From SAR202 cluster bacterium (GTDB taxonomy: Bacteria > Chloroflexota > Dehalococcoidia > Lucifugimonadales > Lucifugimonadaceae), in assembly GCA_016872495.1 (NCBI GenBank), contig VGZT01000002.1, positions 1-64,000 of the forward strand: a stretch of 64,000 bases of DNA. The letters are read 5' to 3'. The notes beneath the pieces are model-generated. The model was given only the letters and a program-made list of their open reading frames with translations. It made no database searches and was not told where the DNA came from. A program made the position numbers and the translations under genes. This document shows, one piece after another, positions 21,031 through 58,752 of the stretch (within the stretch, counting starts at the first letter, position 1; every line of letters starts with the position of its first letter).

Positions 21031-21041
21031 GAGGGAACTCT

Positions 21042-21473
21042 GTGGCCTGTGACGAAATGACCGCGCAGGGCCTGAAAGCGGCCGGACAGCGCCTGACGCC
21101 GATCAGACTTAGCGTACTCGGTGCGCTTCGACACGCGCGTCGCCACATGACGCCGGCGGAAGTGATCGACCAGGCGATGCAGGCTTATCCGCACGTCACG
21201 CCTTCGACGGTCTACCGGGCGCTGTCCACGCTCCGGGACGTCGGCCTCATTAAGGAAACTCGGCGGGGTGGCGACACCCAGTACGAGTGGCTCGAGGAAC
21301 CTCACCATCACCTGACCTGTCGGAGCTGCCACGACGAGGTCAGTGTGCCCCACGCCTCCTTTGCTTCCGCCGAGAGGAAGATCGAGGCGGACTCCGGTTA
21401 TCGAATCGATCTCTCTCATGTTTCGCTGACCGGGCTGTGCCCGGAATGCCTCGCCGAAAGCGGCGAGAAGTGA
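21042..21473 (+). CDS. Fur-family metal-responsive repressor
   Basis: The 143-residue regulator has an N-terminal winged helix (AAGQRLTPIRLSVLGALRH, then STVYRALSTLRDVGLI) and a C-terminal metal/dimer domain. The latter contains EEPHHHLTCRSCHDEV and GLCPECLAE, giving two CxxC pairs for structural zinc. Fur, Zur, Nur and PerR cannot be told apart by this view; the neighbouring NicO permease favours Zur or Nur. GTG at 21042 follows GAGGGA; an ATG at 21057 is also possible. It shares a transcript with the permease 13 bases downstream. Confidence 0.88.
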   Translation: MACDEMTAQGLKAAGQRLTPIRLSVLGALRHARRHMTPAEVIDQAMQAYPHVTPSTVYRALSTLRDVGLIKETRRGGDTQYEWLEEPHHHLTCRSCHDEVSVPHASFASAERKIEADSGYRIDLSHVSLTGLCPECLAESGEK

Positions 21474-21486
21474 AGCCGGAGGCGAA

Positions 21487-22233: not shown

Positions 22234-22352
22234 AAGCGTCTGCCGATCGACCGTGCGGCGTGTGAATCCGAAAAGGCTCGCCGGGGGTATTACACGGAAG
22301 CTTCGCCGGAGTTCGTAGGATAGAATTCGACTGCCTGAATCAATGCAAGCAA

Positions 22353-22426
22353 GGGCGATTAGCTCAGCCGGTTAGAGCGTCTGTCTTACACACAGAAGGT
22401 CAGAGGTTCGAGCCCTCTATCGCCCA
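22353..22426 (+). tRNA. tRNA-Val (anticodon TAC)
   Basis: Acceptor GGGCGAT/ATCGCCC, D-stem GCTC/GAGC, anticodon stem TCTGT/ACAGA with loop CTTACAC, T-stem AGAGG/CCTCT, discriminator A. The following bases are CTTCC, so CCA is not encoded, unlike in the four minus-strand tRNA genes. Confidence 0.95.
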
Positions 22427-22532
22427 CTTCCGGCAGCACGGGTGCGGTTACATCGCTTGCAGGCTGAACGCTGTACGGGGATTTTGACCCGGCGTAGCGC
22501 TAGCGCGCCGCCCTGGTGGAAGGGGACGCACC

Positions 22533-43806: not shown

Positions 43807-44029
43807 GCCGCGAGTATGCGGCAACCGGGCCCGGCGGTTGTAGGCCAGGCGAAGCCCCAGGACATCCGGGCACTCAAGGCTGCGGGTGGACGGGGGCCAG
43901 GACCATGATCGGGGCATTCAAGGCGTTCGTGATGCGTGGGAACGTGCCGGGCCGCGCGGTGGCTTCATCCTCGGCCCCGCGTCCCGTGGCTGCCGGCCTG
44001 TATTCCAGGAGCTTTGGTACCCTTCTGCC

Positions 44030-45214
44030 GTGCTGATCACCAGAACAGACGAACTGAAGAAGATCTGCGCCGTGCTCGCGCGGCGGCCCTACGTGGCGGT
44101 CGACACCGAATTCGTCGGAGAGAACAGTTACTGGCCTCGCCTGTGCCTGATCCAGGTCGCGCACGGCGACCAGGCGGCTGCGATCGACCCGCTCGATAAG
44201 GACCTTGACATGGGTCCGCTGTTCGAGCTGATGGCCGCGCGTGAGGTGGTGAAGGTATTCCACTCCGGTAGTCAGGACCTGGCGATCTTCTTCCGGCTCA
44301 TGCGCCGGATGCCCGCGCCCGTTTTTGATACCCAGGTTGCGGCCATGGCGTGCGGTCTGGGGGACTCGATTTCCTACGCCAACCTGGTCGCGGCCCTGGT
44401 TGGCGTCGACATCCGCAAGAAGATGCAGGTCACGAACTGGGCCCACCGGCCGCTCACCCGAGCGCAGCTCGATTACTCGCTTGGCGATGTCTCTCACCTC
44501 TGCGATGCGTACGAGGTCCTTGCGGCGAAATTGAAGTCGCTGGCGCGCGAGTCGTGGATCGAAGAAGAGATGAACCGGTTGACCGACGAAACCAGGATCG
44601 AGACCGACCCTTCAGAGTCCTGGCGGAGGATCAACATCCGTGGAGCAGATCGTCGAACGCTGGCCGTCCTACGCGAGGTGGCCGCGTGGCGAGAGCGCTG
44701 TGCGATAAGCCTGAACATCCCACGCAATCGCGTGGCACGTGACGAGACCCTGATCGACGTCTCATTCCGCAAGCCCCGGGCGGCCGCAGACCTGGAGAAG
44801 GCGCGCGGCTTTTCCAGCGTGCCGGGCAATGGCGTCGCGGCTACCGAGATCCTGGCCGCGATCGAGCGAGGCCTGGCCGCGCCCGTGACTGATGCGCCAC
44901 GGCCCCATGCAAGGATCGAGTTGACCGACGGCCTCCAGGCGCAGGTCAGCCTGCTCCAGACATTGCTACGAGTAAGGGCCGAGGAGCACGGGATCGCCCA
45001 GCGGCTCATCGCCACCAGGTTGGACCTGGAGGCACTGGTTGATGCGCCGGAAGGGGAACATCGGCTCCTGGCGGGCTGGCGCCGTGACCTGTTCGGAGAG
45101 GATGCGCTGAAGCTGCTCAGGGGCGAGCTGGCGATCACGGGGGACGCTGCCGGTACCAGGATCGTGGCCACTCGGCCGGTTGCAGCCAGGCCGGCCAGGC
45201 CCCGCGCGAGCTAG
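44030..45214 (+). CDS. rnd: Ribonuclease D
   Basis: The 394-residue 3'-5' exonuclease trims tRNA and other small RNA precursors. DEDD catalytic motifs are visible: VAVDTEFVGENSYWP, HSGSQDLAIF, VFDTQVAAM and LDYSLGDVSHL (DEDDy type). HRDC-type helical domains follow (LREVAAWRERCAISLNIPRN and RGFSSVPGNGVA). GTG at 44030; AGGAG lies about 18 bases upstream. Divergent from the Nmad3 gene over 223 bases. Confidence 0.92.
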   Translation: MLITRTDELKKICAVLARRPYVAVDTEFVGENSYWPRLCLIQVAHGDQAAAIDPLDKDLDMGPLFELMAAREVVKVFHSGSQDLAIFFRLMRRMPAPVFDTQVAAMACGLGDSISYANLVAALVGVDIRKKMQVTNWAHRPLTRAQLDYSLGDVSHLCDAYEVLAAKLKSLARESWIEEEMNRLTDETRIETDPSESWRRINIRGADRRTLAVLREVAAWRERCAISLNIPRNRVARDETLIDVSFRKPRAAADLEKARGFSSVPGNGVAATEILAAIERGLAAPVTDAPRPHARIELTDGLQAQVSLLQTLLRVRAEEHGIAQRLIATRLDLEALVDAPEGEHRLLAGWRRDLFGEDALKLLRGELAITGDAAGTRIVATRPVAARPARPRAS

Positions 45215-45254: not shown

Positions 45255-46016
45255 GTGCAACCCAGGGTCCATGTCGGTGAATCGGTTCTTGAGCGCCTGA
45301 GAAAGCAGACCTCGGCGACGGCGTACAGTGCCGTTTATCGGCTGCCGATCCCGGGTAACGGCCAGTGGTTTGCGACTGTCGGCTGGCAACGCTGCCTGAT
45401 GCATGGCGTGCAGCCATTGACCGCCGGAAAACGCCTGGTAGGGCGGGCCAGGACGCTCAGATTCCTGCCCCCGCGCCCAGACCTTCTCGCGATCACGAGG
45501 CGTGGCGCCGACTCTCCCGAGTACCGAGCCATGGCGGAATGCGGTCCCGGCGACGTGCTGGTCGTCGAAGCGCACTCGGCCGACCCGTATGCGTGCATAC
45601 TTGGCAACATGAAGACCCGCCAGCTGTGGCACAACCGCGCCGGCGGAATAGTGACCGATGGTGCCATTCGAGACCTCGACCTGATTTCCCGGGAGTACGG
45701 ACTCGCGGTGTTCGCACGCCAGCGCTCTCCCATGGGCAATCTTCCGTTCATCGAAGCCTACGAATCCGGCGAACCCGTAAACGTCGGAGGCGTGCTGGTG
45801 ATGCCCGGGGACGTCATCGTCGCTGATGACGACGGCGTGGTAGTGGTGCCATGTCAGCACGCCGAGGCGGTCATCGACTGGATCGAGGAGCAGGAAGGCG
45901 CCGAGGAGTTCGTCCAGAAGCTCATCGACGAGGAGAAGGCGCGCCCGGGGAAGTACTATCCGATCTCCGAAGAAACCAAGGCGCGCTACCGGGAGTCGCT
46001 CAAGAAGTCCTCTTAG
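45255..46016 (+). CDS. RraA-family protein (HMG/oxaloacetate aldolase-like)
   Basis: The 253-residue protein has the RraA/class II pyruvate aldolase-like signature NRAGGIVTDGAIRDLDLI, preceded by GDVLVVEAHSADPYACILGN. It may cleave 4-hydroxy-4-methyl-2-oxoglutarate or related keto acids, or decarboxylate oxaloacetate; RNase E inhibition (true RraA) is less likely. GTG at 45255 follows CCGGAGGAC. It starts the accessory locus, 64 bases before enolase paralog 3. Confidence 0.82.
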   Translation: MQPRVHVGESVLERLRKQTSATAYSAVYRLPIPGNGQWFATVGWQRCLMHGVQPLTAGKRLVGRARTLRFLPPRPDLLAITRRGADSPEYRAMAECGPGDVLVVEAHSADPYACILGNMKTRQLWHNRAGGIVTDGAIRDLDLISREYGLAVFARQRSPMGNLPFIEAYESGEPVNVGGVLVMPGDVIVADDDGVVVVPCQHAEAVIDWIEEQEGAEEFVQKLIDEEKARPGKYYPISEETKARYRESLKKSS

Positions 46017-46080
46017 GGCGCGTTTCACATGCGCCTGCAACAAGTAGTGCCCATCGCTTGAATAAAGGGAGTCTGAGAAC

Positions 46081-47211
46081 GTGAAGATCGAAGAAGTCGA
46101 GTCATTTCTGATCGGTGACGCTTACGTTGTCCGCGTGCGCGCCGACAACGGGCTTACCGGCCTGGGCCAGACGGCCTGCTGGGGTTACCCGGAAGCGGTC
46201 GAACGGATCGTGGCCAGGTTCCGCTCATACCTGATCGGCAAGGACCCGTTCCGGATCGAGCACCACCACCAGTTCATGTATCGCATGGGCCCGTTCCGTG
46301 GATCTGCGCTTTCAGGCGCGGTCAGCGCGGTCGACATCGCCCTCTGGGACCTCAAGGGCAAGCACTTTCAGGTACCAGTCTGGGAGCTCCTGGGGGGCAA
46401 GTGCCGTGACAGGGTCCGGCTCCACCTGTTGATGGGCGGCAAGAATCCCGAGGACGCTGGTCGCCGCGCCCGCGAGGCACGCGAGGAGGGGTTTACCGCG
46501 GTCAAGCTCGATCCGCTCCCCGACACCTTCCATTCGATGACCCTTCAGCGGCTGATCAAGTCGACGCGCGAGACCGTTGCCGCGGTGCGCAAAGGCGCGG
46601 GCGATGACGTCGACGTGATCCTGGAGTTGCATCGAAAGCTCACGCCGATGGTTTCGATCGCGCTGGCCGATGCACTGGTCGAGTTCAATCCGCTGTTCAT
46701 CGAAGACCCGATCCAGATCGACTCCATCCAGTCGCAGGGGGAGCTGGCAAAGAGGTTCACGTCGCCGCTTGCGAACGGCGAGCGCATGCACACGATCTGG
46801 GAGTTCCGTGAGCTGCTGACGAGCGGCGGGCCTCAGTACGTCCGGCCTGACATCGGCCTGGCCGGTGGCATTACCCACTGCAAGAAGATCGCGGCCGTTG
46901 CCGAATCGTTCCACTCCGCGGTAGTAACCCACAACTACCTCGGACCGATTCTTACGGCGGCGTCGGTGCAGCTCGACGTCTCGATCCCGAATTTCGTCGT
47001 GCAGGAGTACTCGAAGGGCGACGAGTCACCGAAGAACCGCGTGTACAAGAACTCGGTGAAGCGGAAGGGCGGGTTCATCCCGACGCCGGAGACGCCGGGC
47101 ATCGGGGTCGAACTCGACGAGGCGCTATTGAAGAAGGCGAAGCACGAGCCACGGGACCTGACAAAGATCGTACCGATGCGAGACGACGGATCGGTCGCTT
47201 ACTCGGTGTAA
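46081..47211 (+). CDS. Enolase-superfamily sugar-acid dehydratase-like protein, paralog 3
   Basis: The 376-residue protein belongs to the mandelate racemase-like group. Ligands read Glu in DVILELHRKL (instead of the usual Asp), Glu in FIEDPIQID and Glu in ANGERMHTI. The base His lies in VVTHNYLGPIL; the KxK site reads AVKLDPL. The Asp-to-Glu change at the first ligand also occurs in some dehydratases. It follows the RraA gene on the same transcript, which fits a dehydratase feeding an aldolase. GTG start at 46081, GGGAG upstream. Confidence 0.85.
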   Translation: MKIEEVESFLIGDAYVVRVRADNGLTGLGQTACWGYPEAVERIVARFRSYLIGKDPFRIEHHHQFMYRMGPFRGSALSGAVSAVDIALWDLKGKHFQVPVWELLGGKCRDRVRLHLLMGGKNPEDAGRRAREAREEGFTAVKLDPLPDTFHSMTLQRLIKSTRETVAAVRKGAGDDVDVILELHRKLTPMVSIALADALVEFNPLFIEDPIQIDSIQSQGELAKRFTSPLANGERMHTIWEFRELLTSGGPQYVRPDIGLAGGITHCKKIAAVAESFHSAVVTHNYLGPILTAASVQLDVSIPNFVVQEYSKGDESPKNRVYKNSVKRKGGFIPTPETPGIGVELDEALLKKAKHEPRDLTKIVPMRDDGSVAYSV

Positions 47212-47214
47212 GTC

Positions 47215-47811
47215 ATCGACTTCTCTGCGTCCGCCCGATCGAGCACCCGTGCCAGCCGGGCAAGGTGCGCGGGCTTCAGGCCTCCGGTCTCGTCGATCCC
47301 GGTGCTGATCCACGGCTGATACTGCGGCGATGCGACGCCGCGCCAGATTTCCGCGTCGGATGCGCGCGCCCAATTCGTCGAGCCGTTGCCTCACTGCTGG
47401 CTCCTTGTAGCACTGGAGCGGGCTGCCCCCCGCAAATTGACGGTGAAACCTGTCAAGCCGTGCGACCTCCAGGCCGGCATCGCGGCAATGAACTCGGCCG
47501 TGTTTCGGGCAGGATCCCAGCGCCCTGCGTCCGGATAGGCCCGGAAGCGCGCAGTGACCGGGTTCTCGTCGTCGAAGGCGGCCTGGGCCACGCGGCTTTT
47601 GAGGATGAATCCTCAATCGAGGTGTCCTGGGCGTACTGCCTCTCGTACCGCGGACGACCTTTAACCAGCCAATCTTCACCGTCGATGGCGACCAGGGTGT
47701 TTCGGGCCACGGCCTGCGCCTCCTCCAGAACCGGTTCGTCGGTCTTGCGGTGGTATGCTCCACCCGCCTCGCAGTGGCGGTCTGAGCTCCACGCTGCGGG
47801 CGCCCTCTCAC
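47215..47811 (-). pseudogene. Decayed sugar-active TIM-barrel-like protein
   Basis: Three frames on the minus strand continue one protein. First VLEEAQAVARNTLVAIDGED (about 47735), then YPDAGRWDPARNTAEFIAAM and PAWRSHGLTGFTVNL, then QPWISTGIDETGGLKPAHL and RLARVLDRADAEKS. These match the N-terminal half of a family of glycoside-hydrolase-like proteins, in which 'WDp..NtaEFv..mP.Wr.hGL' is followed by 'NLQGGSP' and 'QPW...af...G.L...yl.RL..il..aD'. Several frameshifts break it and the rest of the barrel is absent (it ends at the enolase stop). Dead gene. It suggests the locus once handled a polysaccharide. Confidence 0.65.
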
Positions 47812-47851
47812 GCTGCCGAGAGGGTGCGGTCACTGAGGGGATGCAGGGGCA

Positions 47852-48886
47852 ATGGCGATAAAACGAATCGGAATTATCGGCGCTGGCGCAATCGGCAGCG
47901 TCGTCGGCGGATTACTGACGAAAGCTGGACGGGACGTGACGCTGGTCGACCAGTGGCCCGAGCACGTGAACGCCATTAGAAAAAACGGTCTGAAGCTGAG
48001 CGGAACGTGCGGCGAGCACACGATCAAGGCCAGGGCCCTTCACATCCACGAGGCGCAGTCGATTCGTGAACCGGTCGACGCCGTGTTCATCGCCGTCAAG
48101 TCCTACGACACCGAGTGGGCAACCCAGCTGGGGCTTCAATACCTGTCGCCAGGGGGCTGCGTGGTCGATTTCCAGAACGGGATCAACGACGAGCGCGTTG
48201 CGGCGGTGGCGGGCAGGGAACGGACGCTGGGCTGCATTATCACGATCGGCGCGGGCATGTACGAGCCGGGGCACGCAATGCGCACGGACACCAACAAGGT
48301 TGGGTTCAAGATCGGGGAGCTCGACGGCAAGGCCACCCCCCGGGCGAATGAGCTCGCCGAGATCATGAACGCGGTCGCTCCCTCGAAGGTCACGACAAAC
48401 CTGTGGGGCGAGCGCTGGTCGAAGCTGGCTGTGAACTGCATGGCGAACCCGATCGCCGGCCTTACGGGCCTTGGAAGCGCCGAAGTGCGCACCGACCCCA
48501 ACGCCCGGCGCGTCGCGATCAAGCTCGCGGCCGAGGTGATCAGGGTTGGCAGGGCGCTCGGTCATGAGATCGAGCCGATCTTCGGGATCCCCGCACAGCG
48601 GTTCGTCGACGCGTCCGACGGCAAGGGCGTGGAGGAGCTGGAGACCGACATGGCAACCGGCGCTGGATCGCTTGCCGGTGGAAAGCCTTCCTTCCTGCAG
48701 GACGTGCTCAAAGGCCGGAGGACCGAGGTCGAGTATCTGAACGGATACGTTTCGGAGCAGGGCCGGAAAGCCGGTATCCAGACGCCATATTGCGACGCGA
48801 TAGTGAAGGTGGTCACCGGGTTCCCGGTCGGCGGGTTGAAGCCGGATCCCAGGAACCTCGCGCCACTCGTCGCGATGTTGCGGTAA
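47852..48886 (+). CDS. Ketopantoate reductase-family oxidoreductase
   Basis: The 344-residue NADPH-dependent reductase has GIIGAGAIGSVVGG at its start, the family AVKSYDTEWA, DFQNGINDERVA, and the catalytic Lys in WSKLAVNCMANPIAG. PanE reduces ketopantoate for CoA, but in this catabolic setting a different 2-keto acid is equally likely; the C-terminal domain is a little longer than in PanE. It is followed by marC after six bases. Confidence 0.85.
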   Translation: MAIKRIGIIGAGAIGSVVGGLLTKAGRDVTLVDQWPEHVNAIRKNGLKLSGTCGEHTIKARALHIHEAQSIREPVDAVFIAVKSYDTEWATQLGLQYLSPGGCVVDFQNGINDERVAAVAGRERTLGCIITIGAGMYEPGHAMRTDTNKVGFKIGELDGKATPRANELAEIMNAVAPSKVTTNLWGERWSKLAVNCMANPIAGLTGLGSAEVRTDPNARRVAIKLAAEVIRVGRALGHEIEPIFGIPAQRFVDASDGKGVEELETDMATGAGSLAGGKPSFLQDVLKGRRTEVEYLNGYVSEQGRKAGIQTPYCDAIVKVVTGFPVGGLKPDPRNLAPLVAMLR

Positions 48887-48892
48887 GGGCAC

Positions 48893-49504
48893 TTGTCCGG
48901 AGTTTCGGACCAGCTCGGGGAGTTCATCCTCGTATTCGTCCCGCTCTTCGTGGCGATGGATCCGCTCGGTGCCCTGCCGTTCCTGGTGCCGTTCCTGGGC
49001 CGGACGCCCCCGGCGCGACGCGGTCGGGTAGTAAGAATCGCTCTCCTGACCGGCCTCGTGCTCGGCCTGGCATTCCTGGCCCTTGGCCGGATGGTCTTCG
49101 ATGTGCTCGGCATTCAACTTGCCGACTTCCTCGTGGCAGGCGGGTTGATCCTGCTGGTGCTCGCATTGCGGGACATGATCGGCCCCGGCCCATCAGAACC
49201 GCCGGAGCCAGACGAGCTGCTGGCCGTGGTGCCGATCGGAACACCGCTGCTGATCGGCCCGGCCGCAATCTCGATGTTGATCCTTCTCAGCAGCCTTTAC
49301 GGGTACGCGGTCACGCTCATCGCGTTCGTGGCGAACATGGTGCTCGCGTGGATCGTCTTCAGGTTTTCGGCCCGCATCGGTGAATTTCTCGGCAGGGGAG
49401 GCCTCTTGGCGATGAGCCGTGTGGCCGACCTCCTGCTGGCGGCGATCGCAATCCAGCTGATTCGCAGAGGCGTGGTCGATATCTGGACCGGTCTGCGGGC
49501 ATGA
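48893..49504 (+). CDS. MarC-family integral membrane protein
   Basis: The 203-residue protein has six hydrophobic helices. MarC marks include FVPLFVAMDPLGALPFLVPF, DFLVAGGLILLVLALRD, VPIGTPLLIGPAAISMLIL and MSRVADLLLAAIAIQLIRRG. The role of MarC is unknown despite its name; metabolite export has been suggested for relatives. TTG at 48893. Confidence 0.87.
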   Translation: MSGVSDQLGEFILVFVPLFVAMDPLGALPFLVPFLGRTPPARRGRVVRIALLTGLVLGLAFLALGRMVFDVLGIQLADFLVAGGLILLVLALRDMIGPGPSEPPEPDELLAVVPIGTPLLIGPAAISMLILLSSLYGYAVTLIAFVANMVLAWIVFRFSARIGEFLGRGGLLAMSRVADLLLAAIAIQLIRRGVVDIWTGLRA

Positions 49505-49514
49505 GCGTCGGCAA

Positions 49515-50678
49515 GTGAGGGCGCCCGACTACCTGTACTTCTCGTTGGACGAGTACGCGGCGCGCTTGCGCGGGTTGCGAAACCGCATGCAAGAGCGGTC
49601 GATCCAGGCGCTGATCGTGACGACGCCCGAGAACATCTTCTACCTCAGCGGCTACCAGACTCCCGGCTATTACTGGTCGATGGCGTTAATTGTCTTCCTG
49701 GACCGGGAGCCTGTCCTGGTGCCACCTCCTCACGAGGAGTCACTGGTCTCGGCCTTCTGCGTCTTCGAGGAGTACCAGACTTACCGCGACACGGCTGACT
49801 GGATCAGTGTCACTTCGGAGGTCATTAAGACCGGTCGCGCAGGCACCGCGCGGATCGCGTACGAAGCGGAATCGTGGTTCATGCGGATCGGCGAGTTCGG
49901 GCGGCTGCAAGCAGCGCTGCCGGATGCGGTGCTGGTCGACGGGTCCGGCCTGGTGGAGTCTGGCCGCCTGATCAAGTCACCCGCCGAGATCTGTTACATC
50001 CGAGAGGCTTCGGTGGCGTCGCAGGCGGGCATGAGGGCGGGCATCGACGCGGTCGCGGTCGGCGCCACCGAGAACGAGATCGCGGCCGCGGTGGTCGCCG
50101 CACAACTGGAGAACGGCAGCGAATACAGCGGGCTGCCGCCTTTCATCAATTCGGGCCCGCGCACGATGCTGGTGCACGTTACATGGTCGGGCAGACGAGT
50201 CGGAAGCGATGAGCCCGTCTTTCTAGAGATCCCGGGCTGCATACACAGGTACCACGCGGCCATGACCAGGACCGTGTGGACGGGTTCAGCCCCGGACCTC
50301 CTGCGTCGGGCCAACGAGACGAACACGGATGCGCTCAGGCTGGCCAAGGCTGCCATCAAGCCCGGCGTGAAGGCCAGGACGGTTTTCGAGCGCGCGCGCG
50401 ATCGGATCGCGGCGGGCGACGTCGGGTATCGGCAGGGGAGGCGCGTCGCCTACGGGATCGGCATCGGCTTTCCGCCTCGCTGGGACGAAGGCCACATCAT
50501 GAGCATCAACGACGGTGAAGAGCGTGTGCTGCGGGCGGGGATGACATTCCACCTCATAACAACCATGCGCATACGGGGTCTCGGGGCAGTCGGCTGCAGC
50601 GATACCGTACTGGTGACAGATAGCGGCTGCGAGACGTTGACTTCGTCCATAGAGCCCGGAGTGATCCTCAAGCCGTAG
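49515..50678 (+). CDS. M24 creatinase-like hydrolase (ectoine hydrolase DoeA-type)
   Basis: The 387-residue protein has the creatinase N-terminal domain (RLRGLRNRMQERSIQALIVT) and a pita-bread domain. Metal ligands of Xaa-Pro peptidases are missing: the first Asp is Glu in VFLEIPGCIHRYHAAMTRTV, the second is Ala, and the GHGxG His site reads YGIGIGFPPRWDEG. These changes match the metal-free DoeA/creatinase group, which hydrolyses ectoine or similar C-N bonds in small molecules. Likely to act on a nitrogenous small molecule. GTG at 49515. Confidence 0.8.
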   Translation: MRAPDYLYFSLDEYAARLRGLRNRMQERSIQALIVTTPENIFYLSGYQTPGYYWSMALIVFLDREPVLVPPPHEESLVSAFCVFEEYQTYRDTADWISVTSEVIKTGRAGTARIAYEAESWFMRIGEFGRLQAALPDAVLVDGSGLVESGRLIKSPAEICYIREASVASQAGMRAGIDAVAVGATENEIAAAVVAAQLENGSEYSGLPPFINSGPRTMLVHVTWSGRRVGSDEPVFLEIPGCIHRYHAAMTRTVWTGSAPDLLRRANETNTDALRLAKAAIKPGVKARTVFERARDRIAAGDVGYRQGRRVAYGIGIGFPPRWDEGHIMSINDGEERVLRAGMTFHLITTMRIRGLGAVGCSDTVLVTDSGCETLTSSIEPGVILKP

Positions 50679-50784
50679 ATCTTCGGAGTGCCGGCCCTTC
50701 GGACGTTTTCTGCCGTCCGAGTCCGAGATGGACCGAGCGTGGAAAGATGGCTGAACCAGGGATTGGACGCGAAGGGAGGGATTC

Positions 50785-51714
50785 TTGAAGATCGGACTCG
50801 GAATAGGGCTGAGTTCCCAGATCCCCGCAAGTGTTTCGGCGTACTTGGACCAGATCGTTGCGGCCGAGCGTGACGGCTTCCCCGTCGCCTGGTTGCCACA
50901 GATACTTGGCTTCGATTCTCTGACCATGATCGCCATGGCGGGGCCGCGCACTTCGCGCATCGAATTCGTGACCGGCGTGGTCCCGATCTATCCGCGCCAT
51001 CCGGTGATGCTCGCGCAGCAGGCGCTGACGGTCGCGCAGGCGACCGGCGACCGCCTTGCGCTTGGAATCGGGCTGGCCCACCCTGAGACGGTCACGACCT
51101 GGTGGGGAGTGCCCTATGAGCGCCCCGCCCGCTACATGCGCGAGTACCTCTCGGTGCTCATGCCGCTGCTGGCCGAGCGCCGGGTCAAGTTCGCCGGTGA
51201 TTTCTTCAAGTCCGAGGTCGGTCTGCGAATCGGCCAGGTCAAGCCCCCCAGCGTGTTGCTGGCGGCGCTGGCCCCGAAGATGCTCGAAATGGCAGGCTCG
51301 ATAGCCGACGGCACTGTTCTCTGGGTCGTCGGCCGCAGGGCTGTCGAGTCGCATATCCTGCCCAGGATCAACGAGGCCGCGCAAAAGGCAGGGAAGCCAC
51401 CGCCCAGGGTGTGTGTCGGGCTGCCGGTCTGTGTCACCGACGATGCGCGCCGCGGCAGGGCATCCGCCGACCAGCAGTTCGCCCGGTATGGTCAACTCGT
51501 GAACTACCGAAGGGTGCTGGACATCGAAGGCGTCGAAGGCCCGGGTTCGGTTGCCGTCGTCGGCAATGAAAAGGAAGTTGAACGGGAGTTGCGCGCCCTG
51601 GCGTCGACCGGGGCGTCCGACTTCTTCGCGTCCATCTTTGTCCCGGACGGGGAACCTTCCGGATCTGAGGCGCGCACCCGCGCTTGCCTGAGATCGCTGG
51701 TCGGCAAAATCTGA
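50785..51714 (+). CDS. LLM-class flavin-dependent oxidoreductase (group 1)
   Basis: The 309-residue luciferase-like TIM-barrel oxidoreductase begins KIGLGIGLSSQIPAS and has WLPQILGFDSLTMIA, EFVTGVVPIYPRHPVMLAQQ and ALGIGLAHPETV. Cofactor may be FMN/FADH2 or F420. Such enzymes are abundant in SAR202-type bacteria and are thought to oxygenate resistant organic compounds, but no substrate is known here. TTG at 50785 follows GGGAGGG. Confidence 0.85.
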   Translation: MKIGLGIGLSSQIPASVSAYLDQIVAAERDGFPVAWLPQILGFDSLTMIAMAGPRTSRIEFVTGVVPIYPRHPVMLAQQALTVAQATGDRLALGIGLAHPETVTTWWGVPYERPARYMREYLSVLMPLLAERRVKFAGDFFKSEVGLRIGQVKPPSVLLAALAPKMLEMAGSIADGTVLWVVGRRAVESHILPRINEAAQKAGKPPPRVCVGLPVCVTDDARRGRASADQQFARYGQLVNYRRVLDIEGVEGPGSVAVVGNEKEVERELRALASTGASDFFASIFVPDGEPSGSEARTRACLRSLVGKI

Positions 51715-51782
51715 CGCCGCGCTGCCGTTCGCGGATCTCGGAGTCCCTCGCCTGATCCCCTTGACCCGCACGGAGACGACGT

Positions 51783-51797
51783 CCTGAGCCCGTCGAA
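51783..51797 (+). repeat. Dispersed short repeat
   Basis: CCTGAGCCCGTCGAA, a copy of the same element as at 15466 and 53089, in the 172-base gap before the first SelA-like gene. Nothing else is recognisable in that gap. Confidence 0.45.
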
Positions 51798-51886
51798 CGA
51801 AGGTGGCGAAGGCCGGTGAGAGTGCGCTGCCTGTACCCCCGGGGTAGAATCCCCCCGGCGTCGTTGCAACCCTTCGGAGCAGTACC

Positions 51887-53056
51887 TTGCCCACTTACAA
51901 GCGCCAGCCCAGTATCTACGAGCGCCTCGGCATCCCCACCGTGATCAATGCCCAGAGCTGGGTGACCATGCTCGGCGGCAGCCTGATGCGACCAGAAGTC
52001 TTCGCGGCGATGGAAGAGGCCGGGCGTCATTTCGTCGAGATCGAGAAGCTCCACGATGTCGCCGGAAACTTCGTGGCGAAGGCGGTAGGGGCAGAAGCAG
52101 GGTTCGTTTGTGCTGGAGCCGCCGCCGGCAACCTGCTGATGTCGGCTGCGGTCATGACCGGTACCGACGAGGCCAAGGTCGAACAGCTGCCTGACACGAC
52201 TGGGATGAAGAGCGAAATTCTCATCTTCAAGTGCCAGCGCAACTACTACGACAAGGCGTTCGAGGTGGCGGGCGCAAGGCTCGTGGACGTCGGCATGCCA
52301 GGCGGCGCCAAGCAGTACCACCTCGAGGCTGCGTTTAGCGAGAACACCGCTGCCGTCGCTTACGTCTTCGCCCCGTTCATGAAGTACCCGCTATCGCTGT
52401 TCGAGGTCGTCGAGATCGCCCACAGCCGGGGCGTCCCGGTCGTGGTGGACGCTTCGGCCGAAGTCCCTCCCGTGGCGAACCTGCGCCGCTACACCGAAGA
52501 AGGGGCCGACCTGGTGACCTTCTCGGGTGGCAAGGGACTCCGGGGGCCCCAGAACTCCGGCATCTTGGCCGGGAAGAAGGAACTGGTCCGAGCGGCCAGG
52601 ATGAACTACCAGTACCCGGGGCCGTCCAGGGCGGGCGTTGCGCGCGCCGCCAAGGTCTCAAAGGAGACGCTGGTCGGGATGATCACCGCCCTGGATCTGT
52701 TCTTGAAGACCGACCACGAGGCGGAATGGGCCGCCTGGCGCGCAATGGCCGAGCACATCGCCGGCAGGTTGAAGGATATCTCCGGGCTGCGGGTCGTGGT
52801 CGAGGAAGAAGAGAATCGGCAGGGGCCTCAGCCAGTCATCTACTTCGAGAGTGGCTGGTCTGGGCCAAGCCCGTCGGAGGTACGGCAGAGGCTGCGTGAT
52901 GGCGACCCGCCGATCTTCGTTGGCGGCGGAGGCTATGGCGATGAGATCAACATGGCGATGGTGAATGTGCAGGAGGGCGAGGAGAAGATCATCGCCGATC
53001 GCCTGCTCTCGATCCTGAAGCCGGCACGAAAGTCCGGGCCGGTGGTCGATCGCTGA
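51887..53056 (+). CDS. SelA/DgaE-like PLP-dependent enzyme, paralog 1
   Basis: The 389-residue fold-type I PLP enzyme carries TVINAQSWVTMLGGSLM at its start, GAEAGFVCAGAAAGNLL, DASAEVPPVAN and the PLP Lys in FSGGKGLRGPQNSG. SelA proper acts on Ser-tRNA(Sec), but this lacks a clear tRNA-binding N-terminal extension, and no selenocysteine gene or tRNA-Sec is nearby. The DgaE-type D-glucosaminate-6-phosphate ammonia-lyase branch, which releases ammonia from an amino sugar acid, is the better guess. TTG at 51887. The next gene is a close copy. Confidence 0.85.
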   Translation: MPTYKRQPSIYERLGIPTVINAQSWVTMLGGSLMRPEVFAAMEEAGRHFVEIEKLHDVAGNFVAKAVGAEAGFVCAGAAAGNLLMSAAVMTGTDEAKVEQLPDTTGMKSEILIFKCQRNYYDKAFEVAGARLVDVGMPGGAKQYHLEAAFSENTAAVAYVFAPFMKYPLSLFEVVEIAHSRGVPVVVDASAEVPPVANLRRYTEEGADLVTFSGGKGLRGPQNSGILAGKKELVRAARMNYQYPGPSRAGVARAAKVSKETLVGMITALDLFLKTDHEAEWAAWRAMAEHIAGRLKDISGLRVVVEEEENRQGPQPVIYFESGWSGPSPSEVRQRLRDGDPPIFVGGGGYGDEINMAMVNVQEGEEKIIADRLLSILKPARKSGPVVDR

Positions 53057-53109
53057 GCTTGTCGAAGCGCTGGCGAACTTGAGCGTCCCCTGAGCCCGTC
53101 GAAGGGCCC
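53052..53109 (+). repeat. Two copies of the dispersed short repeat
   Basis: GCTGAGCTTGTCGAAGCGC (53052-53070, partly over the stop of paralog 1) and CCTGAGCCCGTCGAAGGGCCC (53089-53109) lie between the two SelA-like genes. The intervening bases contain GCGAACTTGAGCG, possibly a third degraded copy. Confidence 0.5.
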
Positions 53110-53146
53110 ACGCTTCGAACCATTAGCTCCTATCGAAGGAAAGAAG

Positions 53147-54292
53147 ATGACCCAGAAAAGAGTTCCCGAAGCCTACGCCCGCCTCGGCATCAAGCCGATC
53201 ATCAATGCCCAGAGCTGGGTGACCGCGCTGGGCGGCAGCCTCATGCGTCCGGAAGTGCTGCAGGCCATGAACGAGGCCGCTACGGCCTTTGTGGACATGA
53301 CGGAACTTAACCTGGCGGCCGGCAAGGTCGTGGCACGTGCGTGCGGGGCGGAAGCCGGTCTGGTTACCGCCGGCGCTTCGGCCAGCCAGACGATCGCGGC
53401 CGCGTCGTGCATGACCGGCACCGACGAAGCGAAAGTCGAACAGCTGCCCGACACCACGGGGATGAAGGACCAGATCCTGATTTTCAAGGGCGAGCGCAAT
53501 CGCTACGACATGGCCTTTGAAGTGCCGGGCGGGCGGCTGGTTGAGTGGGGCATGCTCGGCGGGGCGAAGCCATACCAGCTTGAGGCGGCCATAACGGATC
53601 GAACAGCAGCCATCGCTACGATCTTCGGCCCCTTCATTCGGCGTGGCTTGCCGCTTCCCGAACTCTGCGCGATCGCGCACAGGCGTGGCGTACCGGTGAT
53701 CGTTGACGCCGCCGCCGAAGTCCCGCCCATGGAGAATCTGACCAAGTTCATCAAGCAGGGCGCCGATCTCGTCCTGTTTTCGGGCGGCAAGGGGATCGGC
53801 GGTCCTCAGAACGCGGGACTGCTGGCTGGCCGCAAGGACCTGATCGACGCCGCGATCGCGAACTCGCTGAACCTCCACAGCCCGCGTGCCGGCATCGCGC
53901 GCGGCATGAAGGTATCGAAAGAGTCGATGGTCGGCATGGTTACCGCGCTCGAGCTGTTCCTCGAGACCGACGAGCAGTCGCTGCTGGCGGGTTGGCGCAA
54001 CAAGGCCGAGTACATCCAGGGTCGCCTGAGGGGTATCCCCGGCCTGCGCGTCGCAATCGAGGGGCCCGACGCCAACCGGCAGGGCGTGCAGCCTGTCATC
54101 TACTTCGATAGCGGGTATGCCGGGCCATCGCCCGCCGAGATCCGCAAGCGCTTGCTCGTCGGCGACCCGCCGATCCACGTGGGCGGCGGAGGCTACCGCG
54201 ACGAGATCAACATGGCGATGGTTAATGTGCAGGACGGAGAGGAGAAGATCATCGCCGACCGCCTGCTTGCGATCCTGAAGCCGAAGCGCTGA
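53147..54292 (+). CDS. SelA/DgaE-like PLP-dependent enzyme, paralog 2
   Basis: The 381-residue protein parallels paralog 1 almost end to end: IINAQSWVTALGGSLMRPEV, MTGTDEAKVEQLPDTTGMK, DAAAEVPPMENLTKF, and the PLP Lys in FSGGKGIGGPQNAG. The shared C-terminus (GGGGYRDEINMAMVNVQ, EEKIIADRLL) confirms duplication. Differences in the region after NRYDMAFEVPGGRLVEW suggest a separate substrate. ATG at 53147 follows CGAAGGAAAGAAG. A strong terminator follows the gene. Confidence 0.87.
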   Translation: MTQKRVPEAYARLGIKPIINAQSWVTALGGSLMRPEVLQAMNEAATAFVDMTELNLAAGKVVARACGAEAGLVTAGASASQTIAAASCMTGTDEAKVEQLPDTTGMKDQILIFKGERNRYDMAFEVPGGRLVEWGMLGGAKPYQLEAAITDRTAAIATIFGPFIRRGLPLPELCAIAHRRGVPVIVDAAAEVPPMENLTKFIKQGADLVLFSGGKGIGGPQNAGLLAGRKDLIDAAIANSLNLHSPRAGIARGMKVSKESMVGMVTALELFLETDEQSLLAGWRNKAEYIQGRLRGIPGLRVAIEGPDANRQGVQPVIYFDSGYAGPSPAEIRKRLLVGDPPIHVGGGGYRDEINMAMVNVQDGEEKIIADRLLAILKPKR

Positions 54293-54323
54293 TCCCACTG
54301 CCCGTTTCGACAGGCAAGCTTGA

Positions 54324-54356
54324 GAAGGGCCCGGAGCGATCCGGGCCCCTTCTTTT
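54324..54356 (+). terminator. Rho-independent terminator after the SelA-like pair
   Basis: GAAGGGCCCGGA (54324-54335), loop GCGA, TCCGGGCCCCTTC (54340-54352) and TTTT form a 12-bp stem with one bulged C and a U-run. A partial dispersed-repeat sequence (TTTCGACAGGCAAGCTTGAG) lies just before it. Confidence 0.85.
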
Positions 54357-54430
54357 GCCCATGAAATGAATCTCGACCCGCCAGTCCCGACGCGGTAGGC
54401 TTCTGGCCACACGACGCGCAGGGGAGTCAG

Positions 54431-55570
54431 ATGAAGATCACCGACGTTACGGTCCAGACGTTCAGGTACACATCCAGCGAGGGCAGAGACGCGGAGGGCC
54501 ACGGACATCCGGCTGACCCGCACGACGCAACGCAGACGATCATGACGGTTACGGCCGACAACGGGGCGCAAGGGCATGTCTTCGGTGCAAACCCACAGCA
54601 CGTGGCGGCGCTGGTCAAGCCACACCTCGTGGGCGAAGACCCTTTCTATCGCGAGAAGATCTGGCACCAGCTCTACACGTACCAGCGAGGCAACACTGGT
54701 GTCTTGACCGACCATTTGCTCGGGCTCGTCGACATGGCCCTGTGGGACCTGGCAGGGCAGCACTTCAAGACGCCAATTCACAAGCTTCTCGGCGCCACGC
54801 GCGACAAGGTGCCTGCGTACGGAAGCACGATGTGCGGCGATGAGCTGCCAAATGGCCTCAGCACGCCCGAGGAGTACGGGCGCTTCGCCGAGTGGCTCGT
54901 GAAGCGTGGCTACAAGGCGATCAAGCTTCATACCTGGATGCCGCCGATCAAGTGGGCGCCCGATGCCAGGATGGACGTGCGAGCATGCGCAGCCGTGCGC
55001 GAGGCGGTCGGCCCCGATATCGAGCTCATGATCGACTGCTACCACCACTATTCGCGGTCCGAGGCCTACTACATCGGCAAGGAGCTCGAGAAGCTCGACT
55101 ACAAGTGGATAGAAGAGCCGATGGACGAGTACAGCGTCTCCTCGTATGTCTGGCTCGCCGAGCAGCTCGAAATCCCCGTGATCGGTCCCGAATATCACGC
55201 CGGGAAGATGCAATCGCGCGCCGAGTGGATCGTGCGCGGCGCCTGTGATATCACCCGTGGTGGCGTGACGGACAACGGCGGGATCTCGCCCCTGATGAAG
55301 ATCGTTCACCTCGCCGAGGCGTTCAACATGGCCATGGAGGTCCACGGCGGCGGCCCAGGAAATCTGCACGTCCTCTGCGCGATGAGCATCCCGGGGCAGT
55401 ACTACGAGCGCGGCTTACTGCACCCGTTCATCGACTGGGAGAAACCCAAACCCTGGCTGAAGACGATCGATGACCCGATGGACGAAGACGGCTTCGTGCA
55501 CATCTCGCAGAAGCCTGGTCTTGGCCAGGACATCGACTTCGACTACATCAAGGCGAACCTGGTCAAGTAG
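54431..55570 (+). CDS. Enolase-superfamily sugar-acid dehydratase-like protein, paralog 4
   Basis: The 379-residue protein has Asp in LMIDCYHHYSR, Glu in KWIEEPMDEY, Glu in VIGPEYHAGK, a KxH motif in AIKLHTWMPP, and His in MEVHGGGPGNLHV. The third ligand context (GPEYH instead of GER) and the two His near it set it apart from paralogs 1-3 and resemble paralog 5. ATG at 54431 follows GGGGAG. It stands after the SelA-like terminator with its own start region. Confidence 0.85.
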   Translation: MKITDVTVQTFRYTSSEGRDAEGHGHPADPHDATQTIMTVTADNGAQGHVFGANPQHVAALVKPHLVGEDPFYREKIWHQLYTYQRGNTGVLTDHLLGLVDMALWDLAGQHFKTPIHKLLGATRDKVPAYGSTMCGDELPNGLSTPEEYGRFAEWLVKRGYKAIKLHTWMPPIKWAPDARMDVRACAAVREAVGPDIELMIDCYHHYSRSEAYYIGKELEKLDYKWIEEPMDEYSVSSYVWLAEQLEIPVIGPEYHAGKMQSRAEWIVRGACDITRGGVTDNGGISPLMKIVHLAEAFNMAMEVHGGGPGNLHVLCAMSIPGQYYERGLLHPFIDWEKPKPWLKTIDDPMDEDGFVHISQKPGLGQDIDFDYIKANLVK

Positions 55571-55582
55571 CTCTAACGGCGG

Positions 55583-56521
55583 TCAGCCGAGCGCCTTCCA
55601 GCGCGCTTCATAGGCCTGCCGGGCACGCGTCGCGTCCTCATCTGAAAAGGTCTCGTACGGAGGAAGCAACCGGCGCGGGAACGAAGGATCGGTCAGCCAC
55701 ACGAGCAGCTTGTCATACGCGCCGTCCATGTGGGCGCTCTTGGCCGACCCGTAAAGGGATTCGCCAACGTCGATGAACGTCCTCTGCAGCTCGAACGCAC
55801 GGGCGGCGTCGCCAGTCCGGCCAGCCTCGAAGTACTCCCTGGTGAGCTTCGGGAACAGTCCGGCCATGCTGCAAAGGAGTGAACACTCGCCGAACAATGA
55901 GCCGTAGGCGAACGAGTGTTGAAGGAAGAAATGCTGCAACTCGGGTGCCCGCAGCATCCAGCCACGGATGAGCCCCATGTCATACGTGCTCTGCTTGGTC
56001 GACGTCAGATTCGGAATGAGATCCACTATCTTGCGATAGTCGTCCCCGGTCAGGACGCGCTTGGTGCGCACGAGGTTGTAGTGGAGGAACTCGGAGTCCG
56101 GGAAGGAACCGCACACCACGCGGAAGAACGTCAGCATCTCTGAGTCGCTCACCGGCCCCCAGGACGGCAACGAGATCTGGAACGACCGGACGCCTTTGCC
56201 GTGCGCGTATCGAACACGTTCGATGACCTGCTGAGTCGAAAGGCTGATGGCGCCGACCTGAGGGACCAGGCCCGGCCCGCGCATCTCCTCGACGAACACA
56301 TCGACGACGTCGCGGAACAGGGCGTCGGACATCGCGTAACCCTCGCCCGCGGTGCCCATCACGTACAACCTGCCGAACCCGTGGCCCTTTAGCCTCTTCA
56401 GCAGCCGCCGAAACGAGTTCTCATCCAGCCGGAAATCGTCTGTCCATGGGATGTCGACCGCGCCAAGCATGCCCTGAGGCGAGCGGGCCTTTGGTCGACT
56501 CCTCCGGTCGTACGTGGCCAT
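55583..56521 (-). CDS. Dihydrodipicolinate synthase (DapA)-family aldolase
   Basis: The 312-residue TIM-barrel class I aldolase has the Schiff-base Lys in LTSTKQSTYD and Tyr in LHYNLVRTKR. The start GMLGAVDIPWTDDFRLDENS and VMGTAGEGYAMSD fit the family. In this branch (KDG aldolase, NAL, HOGA types) the enzyme splits a 2-keto-3-deoxy acid into pyruvate and an aldehyde, the expected product of the enolase-type dehydratases here. Convergent with paralog 4; 30 bases after paralog 5 on the same strand. Confidence 0.85.
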   Translation of the reverse strand: MATYDRRSRPKARSPQGMLGAVDIPWTDDFRLDENSFRRLLKRLKGHGFGRLYVMGTAGEGYAMSDALFRDVVDVFVEEMRGPGLVPQVGAISLSTQQVIERVRYAHGKGVRSFQISLPSWGPVSDSEMLTFFRVVCGSFPDSEFLHYNLVRTKRVLTGDDYRKIVDLIPNLTSTKQSTYDMGLIRGWMLRAPELQHFFLQHSFAYGSLFGECSLLCSMAGLFPKLTREYFEAGRTGDAARAFELQRTFIDVGESLYGSAKSAHMDGAYDKLLVWLTDPSFPRRLLPPYETFSDEDATRARQAYEARWKALG

Positions 56522-56551
56522 AGTCTGTGGCCCCCAGCTGTCTCGTGTCGG

Positions 56552-57661
56552 TCAGCGAAGCACGCGGGTGGTCTTCTTCTTGATGAGGTCAAAGTCGATC
56601 TCGGCGCCTAACCCCGGCCCGGTCGGTGCGTGGACGTAGCCCTCGGCGTCGACCTTGATGTCTTTCACCAGGCCGTACTTCTGGGCGTGGTCCGGCAACA
56701 GGACCTCGAAGTAGTCGCAGTTCTCGATCGCCATCGTGAGGTTGAGGTTGGCCACGTTGTTCAGCGAATTCCCGCCGTGGTGCACCTCGCACTTCATGCG
56801 GAACGCCTCGGCGAGATAGGCGATCTTGAGCATCGGTGTGATGCCACCCTTGACCGCCACATCGCCCCGCAACATGTCGGTGGCCTGCGCCGTTATGAAC
56901 TGCGCCATCGGGTAGAGGCCGCCGGGGTTGGCTTCGGTCGCCAGGATCGGTATATCCAGCTTCTGGCGTAGCTTGATATATCCATACATATCGTCTTCGG
57001 CCAGAGGATCCTCGTACCAGTAGTAACCCATCTCCTCGATTGCCCTGCCGACACGCACCGCGTCTTCGTAGCAGTACGCCCACACGGAATCGAGCATGAG
57101 GACCATGTCGTCGCCGACAGCCTTTCGCACGGCCTCGCAGACTTCGATGTCCTCCTTCGGCACCGCCGGCGGGTGGATCTTGTAGGCGGTCCAGCCCTTC
57201 GACTTGTAGTAGAGGGCTTCTTCGGCGTACGCCTCGGGCGACTCCTGCAGGGCCGAGCTGGCATAGGCCGGGGCGCGCTCGCGGCAGGTGCCGATCAGCT
57301 GGTGGACCGGCATGTTTGCAGCCTTCCCTGCCAGGTCCCATAGCGCGACGTCGACGGCGCCGATGCACCGGATCGGGAAGAACCGGTTCTTGGACCAGAG
57401 AGCGCTGTAAAGCCGGCCCCGCTCCAGGGGATCCTGGCCCATGACGACCGGCTTTAGCGTACTCAGGAGCTGCGCCACGTCGACAGCGGCGCTCTGGCTC
57501 GAGTTCCCGAGGAAAGAGTGACCCTCGATCCCCTGGTCGGTGTGAATCGTAACCAGGCCCATCTCGACGGACCCGCCGATCGGCTTCCACTTGCGGGTGT
57601 ACTTCGTCTCGGGGATGTTGTCCCACGAGAACATCGTCACGCTCAGATCGGTGATCTTCAT
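56552..57661 (-). CDS. Enolase-superfamily sugar-acid dehydratase-like protein, paralog 5
   Basis: The 369-residue protein has Asp in VLMLDSVWAYCY, Glu in YWYEDPLAEDD, Glu in LATEANPGGLYP, a KxH motif in AYKIHPPAVP and His in CEVHHGGNSLNNVAN. It is most similar in layout to paralog 4. ATG at 57661 is six bases from the LLM oxidoreductase stop upstream, so LLM, paralog 5 and the DapA aldolase appear to be one minus-strand operon. Confidence 0.85.
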   Translation of the reverse strand: MKITDLSVTMFSWDNIPETKYTRKWKPIGGSVEMGLVTIHTDQGIEGHSFLGNSSQSAAVDVAQLLSTLKPVVMGQDPLERGRLYSALWSKNRFFPIRCIGAVDVALWDLAGKAANMPVHQLIGTCRERAPAYASSALQESPEAYAEEALYYKSKGWTAYKIHPPAVPKEDIEVCEAVRKAVGDDMVLMLDSVWAYCYEDAVRVGRAIEEMGYYWYEDPLAEDDMYGYIKLRQKLDIPILATEANPGGLYPMAQFITAQATDMLRGDVAVKGGITPMLKIAYLAEAFRMKCEVHHGGNSLNNVANLNLTMAIENCDYFEVLLPDHAQKYGLVKDIKVDAEGYVHAPTGPGLGAEIDFDLIKKKTTRVLR

Positions 57662-57666
57662 TGCGA

Positions 57667-58752
57667 TCAGATTCCTGCCTTCGCTAGCTTCGGTTGGACG
57701 ACCTGCCTCAATAGCCGGAACGATTCCTTCCACCTGGGCGCCGGCGCCCATTCGTGAGCCATCGCCAGCAGCACACCAAACCCGCCCACCGCAGCGTGGA
57801 GCTTCGCGATCTTCTCTGCGACTTCGTCCGGACCACCTACGATCCACACGTTCTCGGCCATGTAGTCGGCGGTGACGGCCCTGTCGGGCATATCCTGGTC
57901 GATCTTGCACAACTTCAACATGCCGTCACGCTTGAGCAGCGGGTAGAAGTACTGGTTCCAGTCCCTCGCCAGCACACCCTTCTTCGCCTCGTTCATGGCG
58001 GCCCGGGCGGTCGTTCCGACGAACACCTCGCGAGCTATGCGCCACGTCTTGCGCTGGGGCCGCCTTCCCGCCCGCTTCGCACCTTCTTGCACGGCCACCC
58101 AGTGCGTCTTGAGCACCCATTCCGGAACGAGGTTGATACTCATCGGTATCCACCCTCGCTCGCCCGCCAGTGCCAGAGTGCTGGACTTCGGGGTCACCCC
58201 GGCGACGCCGATCGGAGGATGCGGCTTCTGGTACGGCTTCAAGTAGACGCGCAGCCCGATGTTCTTCTCGGGCCTGGGTACGGTGTAATCAAAGTAGTTG
58301 GTGTTATGGTTCCCGGGCTTGGGGCTGCGCCATAACTCGAGGACCGCCTCGACCGCCTGGCGGGTCATTATCCGGTTGTCCTTCTTGCCCTCACCGTAGC
58401 CGAACACCTCGAGGTCGCCAGGAAAGCCGCCGGAGCCAACCCCCCAGTGAAAGCGGCCTCTTGCCATGTGATCCAGCTGTGCGATGCGATGGGCCAGGAC
58501 GAACGGGTTGTGGTTGGGTAAACACGAGACGCCGGTCGCCAGGACGATGTTCTTCGTGCGCTCGAGCGCGGCGGCGATGAACAGGTCGGGGGCGGGGATG
58601 TTCTCCCATTCAGACGTGAAGTGCTCGCCGATCCAGGCCTCTCGGTAGCCCAGCCGGTCTAGCTCGACGATCTGGTCGAGGTCGCCGTGCAGGGATCGGG
58701 TGTAGTCGGTCCCGGGCGGGTGCAAAGGCATCGCGAAATAGCCGAAATCCAA
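57667..58752 (-). CDS. LLM-class flavin-dependent monooxygenase-like protein (group 2)
   Basis: The 361-residue luciferase-like protein reads FGYFAMPLHPPGTDYTRSLH, YREAWIGEHFTSEWENIPAP, NIVLATGVSCLPNHNPFVLA and GRFHWGVGSGGFPGDLEVFG. It is the longer two-component monooxygenase type (FMNH2-dependent, needing a flavin reductase), unlike the shorter protein at 50785. TTG at 58752 is preceded by CGGAGGAGC-like bases. It leads the operon with enolase paralog 5 and the DapA aldolase, so it may oxidise the substrate before or after dehydration. Confidence 0.85.
   Translation of the reverse strand: MDFGYFAMPLHPPGTDYTRSLHGDLDQIVELDRLGYREAWIGEHFTSEWENIPAPDLFIAAALERTKNIVLATGVSCLPNHNPFVLAHRIAQLDHMARGRFHWGVGSGGFPGDLEVFGYGEGKKDNRIMTRQAVEAVLELWRSPKPGNHNTNYFDYTVPRPEKNIGLRVYLKPYQKPHPPIGVAGVTPKSSTLALAGERGWIPMSINLVPEWVLKTHWVAVQEGAKRAGRRPQRKTWRIAREVFVGTTARAAMNEAKKGVLARDWNQYFYPLLKRDGMLKLCKIDQDMPDRAVTADYMAENVWIVGGPDEVAEKIAKLHAAVGGFGVLLAMAHEWAPAPRWKESFRLLRQVVQPKLAKAGI

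Follow-up and report, generated by a model that had tools for sequence, protein, structure and literature searches.

Two convergent gene modules of putative non-phosphorylative sugar-acid catabolism, one with a candidate lyase arm for amino-sugar acids, in a SAR202 group I bacterium

The window analysed here is a stretch of 64,000 nucleotides, namely positions 1-64000 of contig VGZT01000002.1 (C2) in genome G000, a SAR202 cluster bacterium assembly of 2.34 Mb that is 98% complete. Between positions 45255 and 58752 it carries a dense set of catabolic genes, among them a pair of pyridoxal 5'-phosphate (PLP) enzymes, SelA1 and SelA2, three enolase-superfamily enzymes (Eno1-3), two aldolase-like proteins, an M24 hydrolase and two luciferase-like (LLM) proteins. 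As shown in Table 1, a profile scan of the window proteins placed every enzyme class named in the initial annotation at its position with a score over the Pfam cut-off, but a MarC-family gene and a 640-bp gap had been overlooked there. The genes had also been treated as one single locus; what was found instead is two convergent modules with different conservation, module A on the plus strand and module B (LLM2-Eno3-DapA) on the minus strand, with 12 bp separating Eno2 from the DapA-like gene. From PanE through Eno2 the intergenic gaps measure 6-172 bp. The open reading frame of Eno3 opens at 57910, and homology begins only at the Met codon at 57661. No Rfam element was found within the locus, the only hits being tRNAs elsewhere; no sigma-70 promoters were found at the locus, and terminator-like sites occurred at chance level.

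Table 1. Genes and features of the catabolic locus and its flank (window coordinates).
Feature	Position	Strand	Basis or remark
RNase D-like housekeeping gene	43886..45214	+	named by reading the sequence, without family scan; synteny marker
RraA-like aldolase/decarboxylase, candidate 2-keto-3-deoxy acid aldolase	45255..46016	+	PF03737 102 bits; best solved relative 5x15
Eno1, enolase-superfamily acid-sugar dehydratase	46081..47211	+	PRK14017 308 vs cut-off 311 bits; 3rr1
Gap without recognisable gene, 640 bp	47212..47851	.	coding-poor
PanE/ApbA-type 2-keto acid reductase	47852..48886	+	TIGR00745 205 vs 141 bits
MarC-family integral membrane protein	48893..49504	+	PF01914 113 bits
M24 'pita-bread' hydrolase, DoeA-like	49515..50678	+	Peptidase_M24 and Creatinase_N
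LLM1, F420-dependent LLM-class oxidoreductase	50785..51714	+	Bac_luciferase; TIGR03564 300 vs 234 bits; conserved-module marker
SelA1, PP-type SelA/DgaE-like PLP enzyme	51887..53056	+	SelA Pfam 41 bits
SelA2, PP-type SelA/DgaE-like PLP enzyme	53147..54292	+	SelA Pfam 41 bits
Eno2, enolase-superfamily enzyme	54431..55570	+	MR_MLE; nearest 1rvk/4hch
DapA-like class I aldolase, module B	55583..56521	-	DHDPS PF00701 49 bits
Eno3, enolase-superfamily enzyme, module B	56552..57661	-	MR_MLE; nearest 1rvk/4hcd
LLM2, luciferase-like protein	57667..58752	-	Bac_luciferase; first gene of the minus-strand run

Because Candidatus Lucifugimonas marina JH1073 (genome G086, locus L162) belongs to the same family, the genome of the window is SAR202 group I, in agreement with the SAR202 setting proposed in the initial annotation. 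The nearest relative, congener G147 (locus L109), is a metagenome-assembled genome (MAG) from groundwater, and the host lineage is therefore probably non-marine. Published profiles of SAR202 group I are rich in enolases (PMC6946804, PMC10444878), and fucose, rhamnose, their acids and lactones elicit a response in cultured group I cells (PMC10444878). The present genome, with 73 MR_MLE_C matches over the cut-off and only nine LLM matches, fits this profile rather than that of group III, in which flavin monooxygenases are expanded; of the two expanded families expected at the outset, the enolases were thus borne out and the flavin monooxygenases were not. Enolase density as such was rejected as a surprising feature of the locus, as the spacing of the 73 copies is near random: seven overlapping sets of three enolases within 13.5 kb were counted in the whole genome, of which two touch this locus, and random placement on a single molecule would give 4.8 (P about 0.2).

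Gene order is a different matter, since it exceeds chance by its conservation in a congener and in a second genus. The congener (L066/L109) keeps RNaseD, Eno1, a second enolase, PanE, M24, LLM1, SelA1, SelA2 and Eno2 in the order and on the strand of the window, with proteins 67-87% identical in L066 up to the contig end (RNaseD, 59%). Only one congener has an informative contig; the other, G148, is a 61% complete assembly in 510 contigs, in which no close SelA match was found. In genus g80, which includes the MAG UBA1151, four loci keep parts of PanE, LLM1, SelA, Eno2, RraA and RNaseD, all within about 15 kb. The g80 RraA copies near the cluster are 70-71% identical and the RNaseD homologs 44-46% (L121/L129); as insertions, L129 carries an aldolase gene of the HpcH/HpaI (2-keto-3-deoxy-glucarate) type and L121 a DUF429 gene. 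The order is thus kept across two genera with proteins 50-70% identical. Conservation of the neighbourhood in relatives had been set beforehand as the test on which the proposal could fall, and it was found to be partial, in the congener and in g80.

The most telling marker of the conserved module is LLM1. Among the 61 family genomes compared, LLM1 orthologs (E<=1e-50) occur in six, in all six within about 1.5 kb of a SelA gene. Eno2 orthologs are present in 39 of the 61 and adjacent to SelA in genera g1 and g80 only, M24 and DapA orthologs sit elsewhere in most relatives, and in g4 and g8 the SelA pair is found again, among different neighbours. Module B is separate, convergent and partly conserved in a third genus: apart from the window's genome, DapA orthologs were found only in five genomes of genus g6 (six in all), and in those g6 loci that are long enough, DapA lies near an Eno3 relative, an Eno3 paralog and an HpcH aldolase.

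It should be further pointed out that in congener L066 an extra enolase gene occupies the place of the 47212-47851 gap. The gap was rejected as a remnant of this enolase, for it matches neither that gene nor any window protein. Read on the minus strand, it resembles a frameshifted gene (e.g. ENPVTARFRAYPDAGRWDPARNTAEFIAAMPAWRSHGLTGFTVNLRG), a candidate coding remnant, with no match in Pfam or among the compared loci.

In a residue alignment, Eno1-3 retain the three acidic metal ligands, the strand-7 His and the catalytic bases. Eno1, which falls 3 bits short of the galactonate dehydratase cut-off, has the active site E-L-H, E, E, H, like galactonate dehydratase/ManD. With the Agrobacterium enzyme of 1rvk/4hch, Eno2 (active site KxH, D, E, E, H) shares 51-52% identity; entry 4hch is titled D-glucarate dehydratase, and the title is no proof of function for Eno2. 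The predicted Eno2 structure was of low confidence (predicted local distance difference test score, pLDDT, 66) and was used only to read the titles of the closest entries. The DapA-like aldolase keeps the Schiff-base Lys, the Tyr and the GTxGE motif.

The M24 protein aligns better with DoeA (137 bits) than with prolidase (86 bits). Four of five prolidase metal ligands are lost, and Glu238 aligns with Glu255 of DoeA, which is reportedly the nucleophile. Because most of the metal ligands are gone and this Glu is matched, the protein is likely a metal-free C-N hydrolase and no peptidase, judging from the alignment. Of its earlier label 'DoeA-type', the fold and the key Glu held while identity with DoeA itself did not: the curated cut-offs are far off (350 vs 575 bits for NF038259, 170 vs 613 for TIGR02993) and, unlike in DoeA/EutD systems, no other doe/eut gene lies in the run. 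LLM1, for which an oxygenation step had been assumed, passes the F420-dependent family TIGR03564, and the genome encodes the F420 biosynthesis protein CofD (298 vs cut-off 257 bits); for these reasons LLM1 is more likely an F420 reductase or dehydrogenase than an oxygenase. The best F420 family match of LLM2 is below its cut-off.

SelA1 and SelA2 are 64% identical to each other. The initial annotation had called them SelA/DgaE-like; the SelA fold family was confirmed, but they are not DgaE proper, scoring 206/202 bits against a cut-off of 385 (TIGR01437) and 195/196 against 600 (NF047797) and having lost key residues. In D-glucosaminate-6-phosphate ammonia-lyase (DGL), His-163 is the proton donor, His-162 is conserved, Arg-301/332/346 lie near the substrate phosphate and Arg-226 near the carboxylate (PMC9529869). 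These positions were compared by a profile alignment of 53 relatives and by direct alignment. The PLP Lys (K215) and its Asp are invariant in 53 of 53; the Arg226 position is Arg or Lys in 47 of 53 and basic in both window proteins. The counterparts of His162/163 are Pro, Phe or a gap in SelA1/SelA2 (His162 is present in 0 of 53 relatives and His163 in 2), and Arg301/332/346 are replaced by Gln, Gly and Val in both. Judged by these residues, SelA1 and SelA2 lack the phosphate site of DGL. Both belong to a branch marked by DAAAxxPPxxNL, with a PP insertion after DAAAE, that takes in haloarchaeal and acidobacterial proteins as well (hereafter PP-type).

A phylogenetic tree, in which branches are long, places DGL with Cap15, the PLP- and O2-dependent monooxygenase-decarboxylase of capuramycin (support 100/99), and SelA1/SelA2 in a separate supported clade. 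Within it, SelA1 groups with the single copies of g80. SelA2 clusters with its counterparts in g4 and g8, close to the majority of the other single copies, that of Lucifugimonas among them. A recent tandem duplication was rejected, as the copies fall in different supported clades common to other genera; on this tree the duplication is old. The predicted SelA2 model (pLDDT 93.7) has as its closest solved fold the Cap15 holoenzyme 8t7j (Z 43.4, 1.9 A, 354 residues, 34% identity), followed by DGL 7lc0 (Z 41.0, 2.6 A).

Some PP-type genes of other lineages lie near polysaccharide-lyase or sugar-acid genes. The Natronococcus gene is beside heparinase II/III and transporters, that of Haloarcula beside a PL8 polysaccharide lyase and an AGE epimerase, and that of Granulicella beside RraA, RidA and an amidohydrolase. 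RidA clears enamine/imine products of PLP eliminations. In the acidobacterial loci L175 and L181, and in part L183, RraA, RidA, a major facilitator superfamily (MFS) carrier, a PfkB kinase and Eda are near the PP-type gene; in L175/L181 the carrier is nearest to D-galactonate transporters, Eda is over its cut-off, and PfkB is nearest to KHG/KDPG-aldolase/kinase and KDG-kinase models. It is suggestive that a KDG kinase and Eda consume the product expected from glucosaminate. In another acidobacterial locus, L176 (6957-8893), the PP-type gene is immediately preceded by genes for a NagB-II-like SIS protein and a DapA-like protein, a compact, possible amino-sugar set, and enolases, UxuA, an arylsulfatase and RraA are near the PP-type gene in Caldilineaceae (L163). 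These neighbours in other phyla lend support to the sequence of water or ammonia removal and then aldol cleavage of acidic (amino) sugars that had been proposed at the outset.

Two further observations concern these relatives. The PP-type proteins of L175, L181 and L182 (near 8779-10107) start with twin-arginine motifs such as RRTFLG or RRGFM, and the adjoining RidA of L181 is similarly tagged, which suggests a putative exported form in Acidobacteriota. Locus L137 (JAGWAU010000067.1), from a MAG labelled Alphaproteobacteria, combines a SelA pair, whose second copy is apparently frameshifted, with an enolase, an aldo-keto reductase and a class IV aminotransferase. This is the layout of SAR202 G124/L036, and it reflects either transfer or a misbinned contig.

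We propose, with a probability of about 0.5, that the locus consists of two convergent modules of non-phosphorylative sugar-acid catabolism, one of which has a PLP-lyase arm for amino-sugar acids. Families, the catalytic residues of the enolases and DapA, residue losses and synteny are read from the sequence; what we infer is which substrates and products are involved and in what order the steps run. In module A, SelA1 and SelA2 would strip water and ammonia from unphosphorylated 2-amino-2-deoxy-aldonates of the glucosaminate/galactosaminate type to give 2-keto-3-deoxy-aldonates. The enolase dehydratases would convert ordinary aldonates and aldarates to the same class of 2-keto-3-deoxy acids, where both arms would meet, and RraA or another aldolase would cleave these to pyruvate and an aldehyde. 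The PanE-like protein and F420-dependent LLM1 may oxidise or reduce 2-keto acids or aldehydes. The DoeA-like M24 protein may act upstream, releasing the amino acid substrate by hydrolysis of a C-N bond. A different acid sugar would be handled by module B, with its own pair of dehydratase and aldolase. We put forward more tentatively that the PP-type branch as a whole (SAR202, Acidobacteriota, Caldilineaceae, other bacteria and haloarchaea) is a family of ammonia-lyases for unphosphorylated amino-sugar acids.

Several points weigh against this proposal. The loss of the His163 counterpart may mean a different reaction, the top fold match of SelA2 is the O2-dependent Cap15, and an RraA-type protein is in many cases something other than an aldolase. 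The locus contains neither a sugar transporter nor a deacetylase or regulator. At the cluster's place in L066 there is no RraA or MarC gene, and M24 is tied to the cluster in genus g1 only. The neighbour survey consists of hand-read loci without a matched background and is suggestive, with no statistic attached; the markers are missing altogether from many of the scanned loci outside SAR202 (e.g. L160, L166-L171, L177), and in Lucifugimonas and other genera PP-type relatives are near RlmN-like and phosphate-transport-like genes.

The genes might instead be a loose collection from several unrelated short pathways with no common substrate. Near-random enolase spacing, an Eno2 that is seldom SelA-adjacent, the scattered M24 and DapA orthologs and the two opposite-strand runs would all suit such a collection; the tie of every LLM1 ortholog to SelA, an order kept across two genera at the identities given above and the short gaps from PanE to Eno2 would not, and we find this account doubtful. 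We consider it unlikely that the locus serves a nitrogen-compound pathway, in which M24 would take a cyclic or acylated amino acid and open or hydrolyse it, like DoeA with ectoine, the beta-hydroxy or diamino acid so released would be the substrate of SelA1/SelA2 as lyases or dehydratases, PanE would reduce the 2-keto acid, and the enolases would be bystanders or racemases. DoeA models and structures are the best matches of M24, Glu255 is kept, and both G124 and L137 have a class IV aminotransferase gene close to their SelA pair. However, the run has no DoeB/EutE deacetylase, M24 joins the cluster in a single genus, and PP-type relatives stand beside polysaccharide lyases and KDG-pathway genes.

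The structural match raises the further question of whether SelA1/SelA2 are O2-dependent enzymes like Cap15, converting a beta-hydroxy-alpha-amino acid to a carboxamide by oxidative decarboxylation. The Cap15 entry 8t7j ranks just above 7lc0. Cap15 is phosphate dependent and requires lysines K262 and K265 for activity (PMC6411801), and both have counterparts here, K255 (53 of 53) and the nearly invariant K258. Yet the same lysines are found in DGL, and Cap15, whose structure contains a phosphate anion, groups with DGL and shares with it the phosphate arginines that SelA1/SelA2 lack. We therefore hold this reaction to be quite improbable.

Returning to the proposed amino-sugar-acid arm, no known system that we compared matches it in full. 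The pathways of Candidatus Lucifugimonas marina (PMC10444878), from the same family, likewise pair COG4948 enolases with COG3836/COG0329-type aldolases and are kinase-free, but they use SDR/MDR dehydrogenases and are without PLP-lyase, PanE, F420-LLM and M24 steps; Lucifugimonas (L162) does have a SelA2-clade gene, in a neighbourhood different from the window's. DGL shares with SelA1/SelA2 the fold, the PLP Lys and the carboxylate-binding position, and acts on a 2-amino-3-hydroxy sugar acid, whereas the window proteins have the PP insertion and sit on another branch. In the N-acetylglucosamine route predicted for Natrarchaeobius, a DGL homolog of the chitin clusters has a galactonate dehydratase and a glucose dehydrogenase as neighbours (PMC12343721). 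A kinase is assumed there, while the haloarchaeal PP-type proteins compared here lack the phosphate arginines; if this loss holds for the Natrarchaeobius protein, which was itself outside the comparison, a kinase would be unnecessary in the haloarchaeal route.

Elsewhere in the window, a further catabolic group at 9141-15114 contains adjacent enolases (10394-11623 and 11392-12771), an amidohydrolase (12806-14023), a PALP-type PLP enzyme (13999-15114) and, on the opposite strand, a Gfo/Idh/MocA oxidoreductase (9141-10370). The SelA pair of G074 has a relative of this amidohydrolase nearby, in L037. Five tRNA genes lie at 18161-22427, those for Arg, Leu, Val and Met on the minus strand and a second Val on the plus strand.

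The non-phosphorylative sugar-acid theme is already known for SAR202 group I. For the PP-type PLP arm and the present arrangement no description was found in the searchable open literature, nor was a gene for an unphosphorylated glucosaminate lyase or an assignment of this SelA-like branch, which the annotated records examined name only as 'aminotransferase class V-fold PLP-dependent enzyme' and which would gain a function under the present proposal. If the wider proposal on the PP-type branch is true, amino sugars derived from chitin, peptidoglycan or glycosaminoglycans would reach 2-keto-3-deoxy acids by a kinase-free route, which this SAR202 lineage would have integrated with its enolase-based machinery for sugar acids. 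Degradation of old dissolved organic matter is attributed to SAR202 bacteria, yet only a small number of their many paralogs have an assigned substrate. The cluster gives a testable substrate class, the amino-sugar acids, which would link this machinery to the breakdown of cell-wall and amino-sugar polymers.

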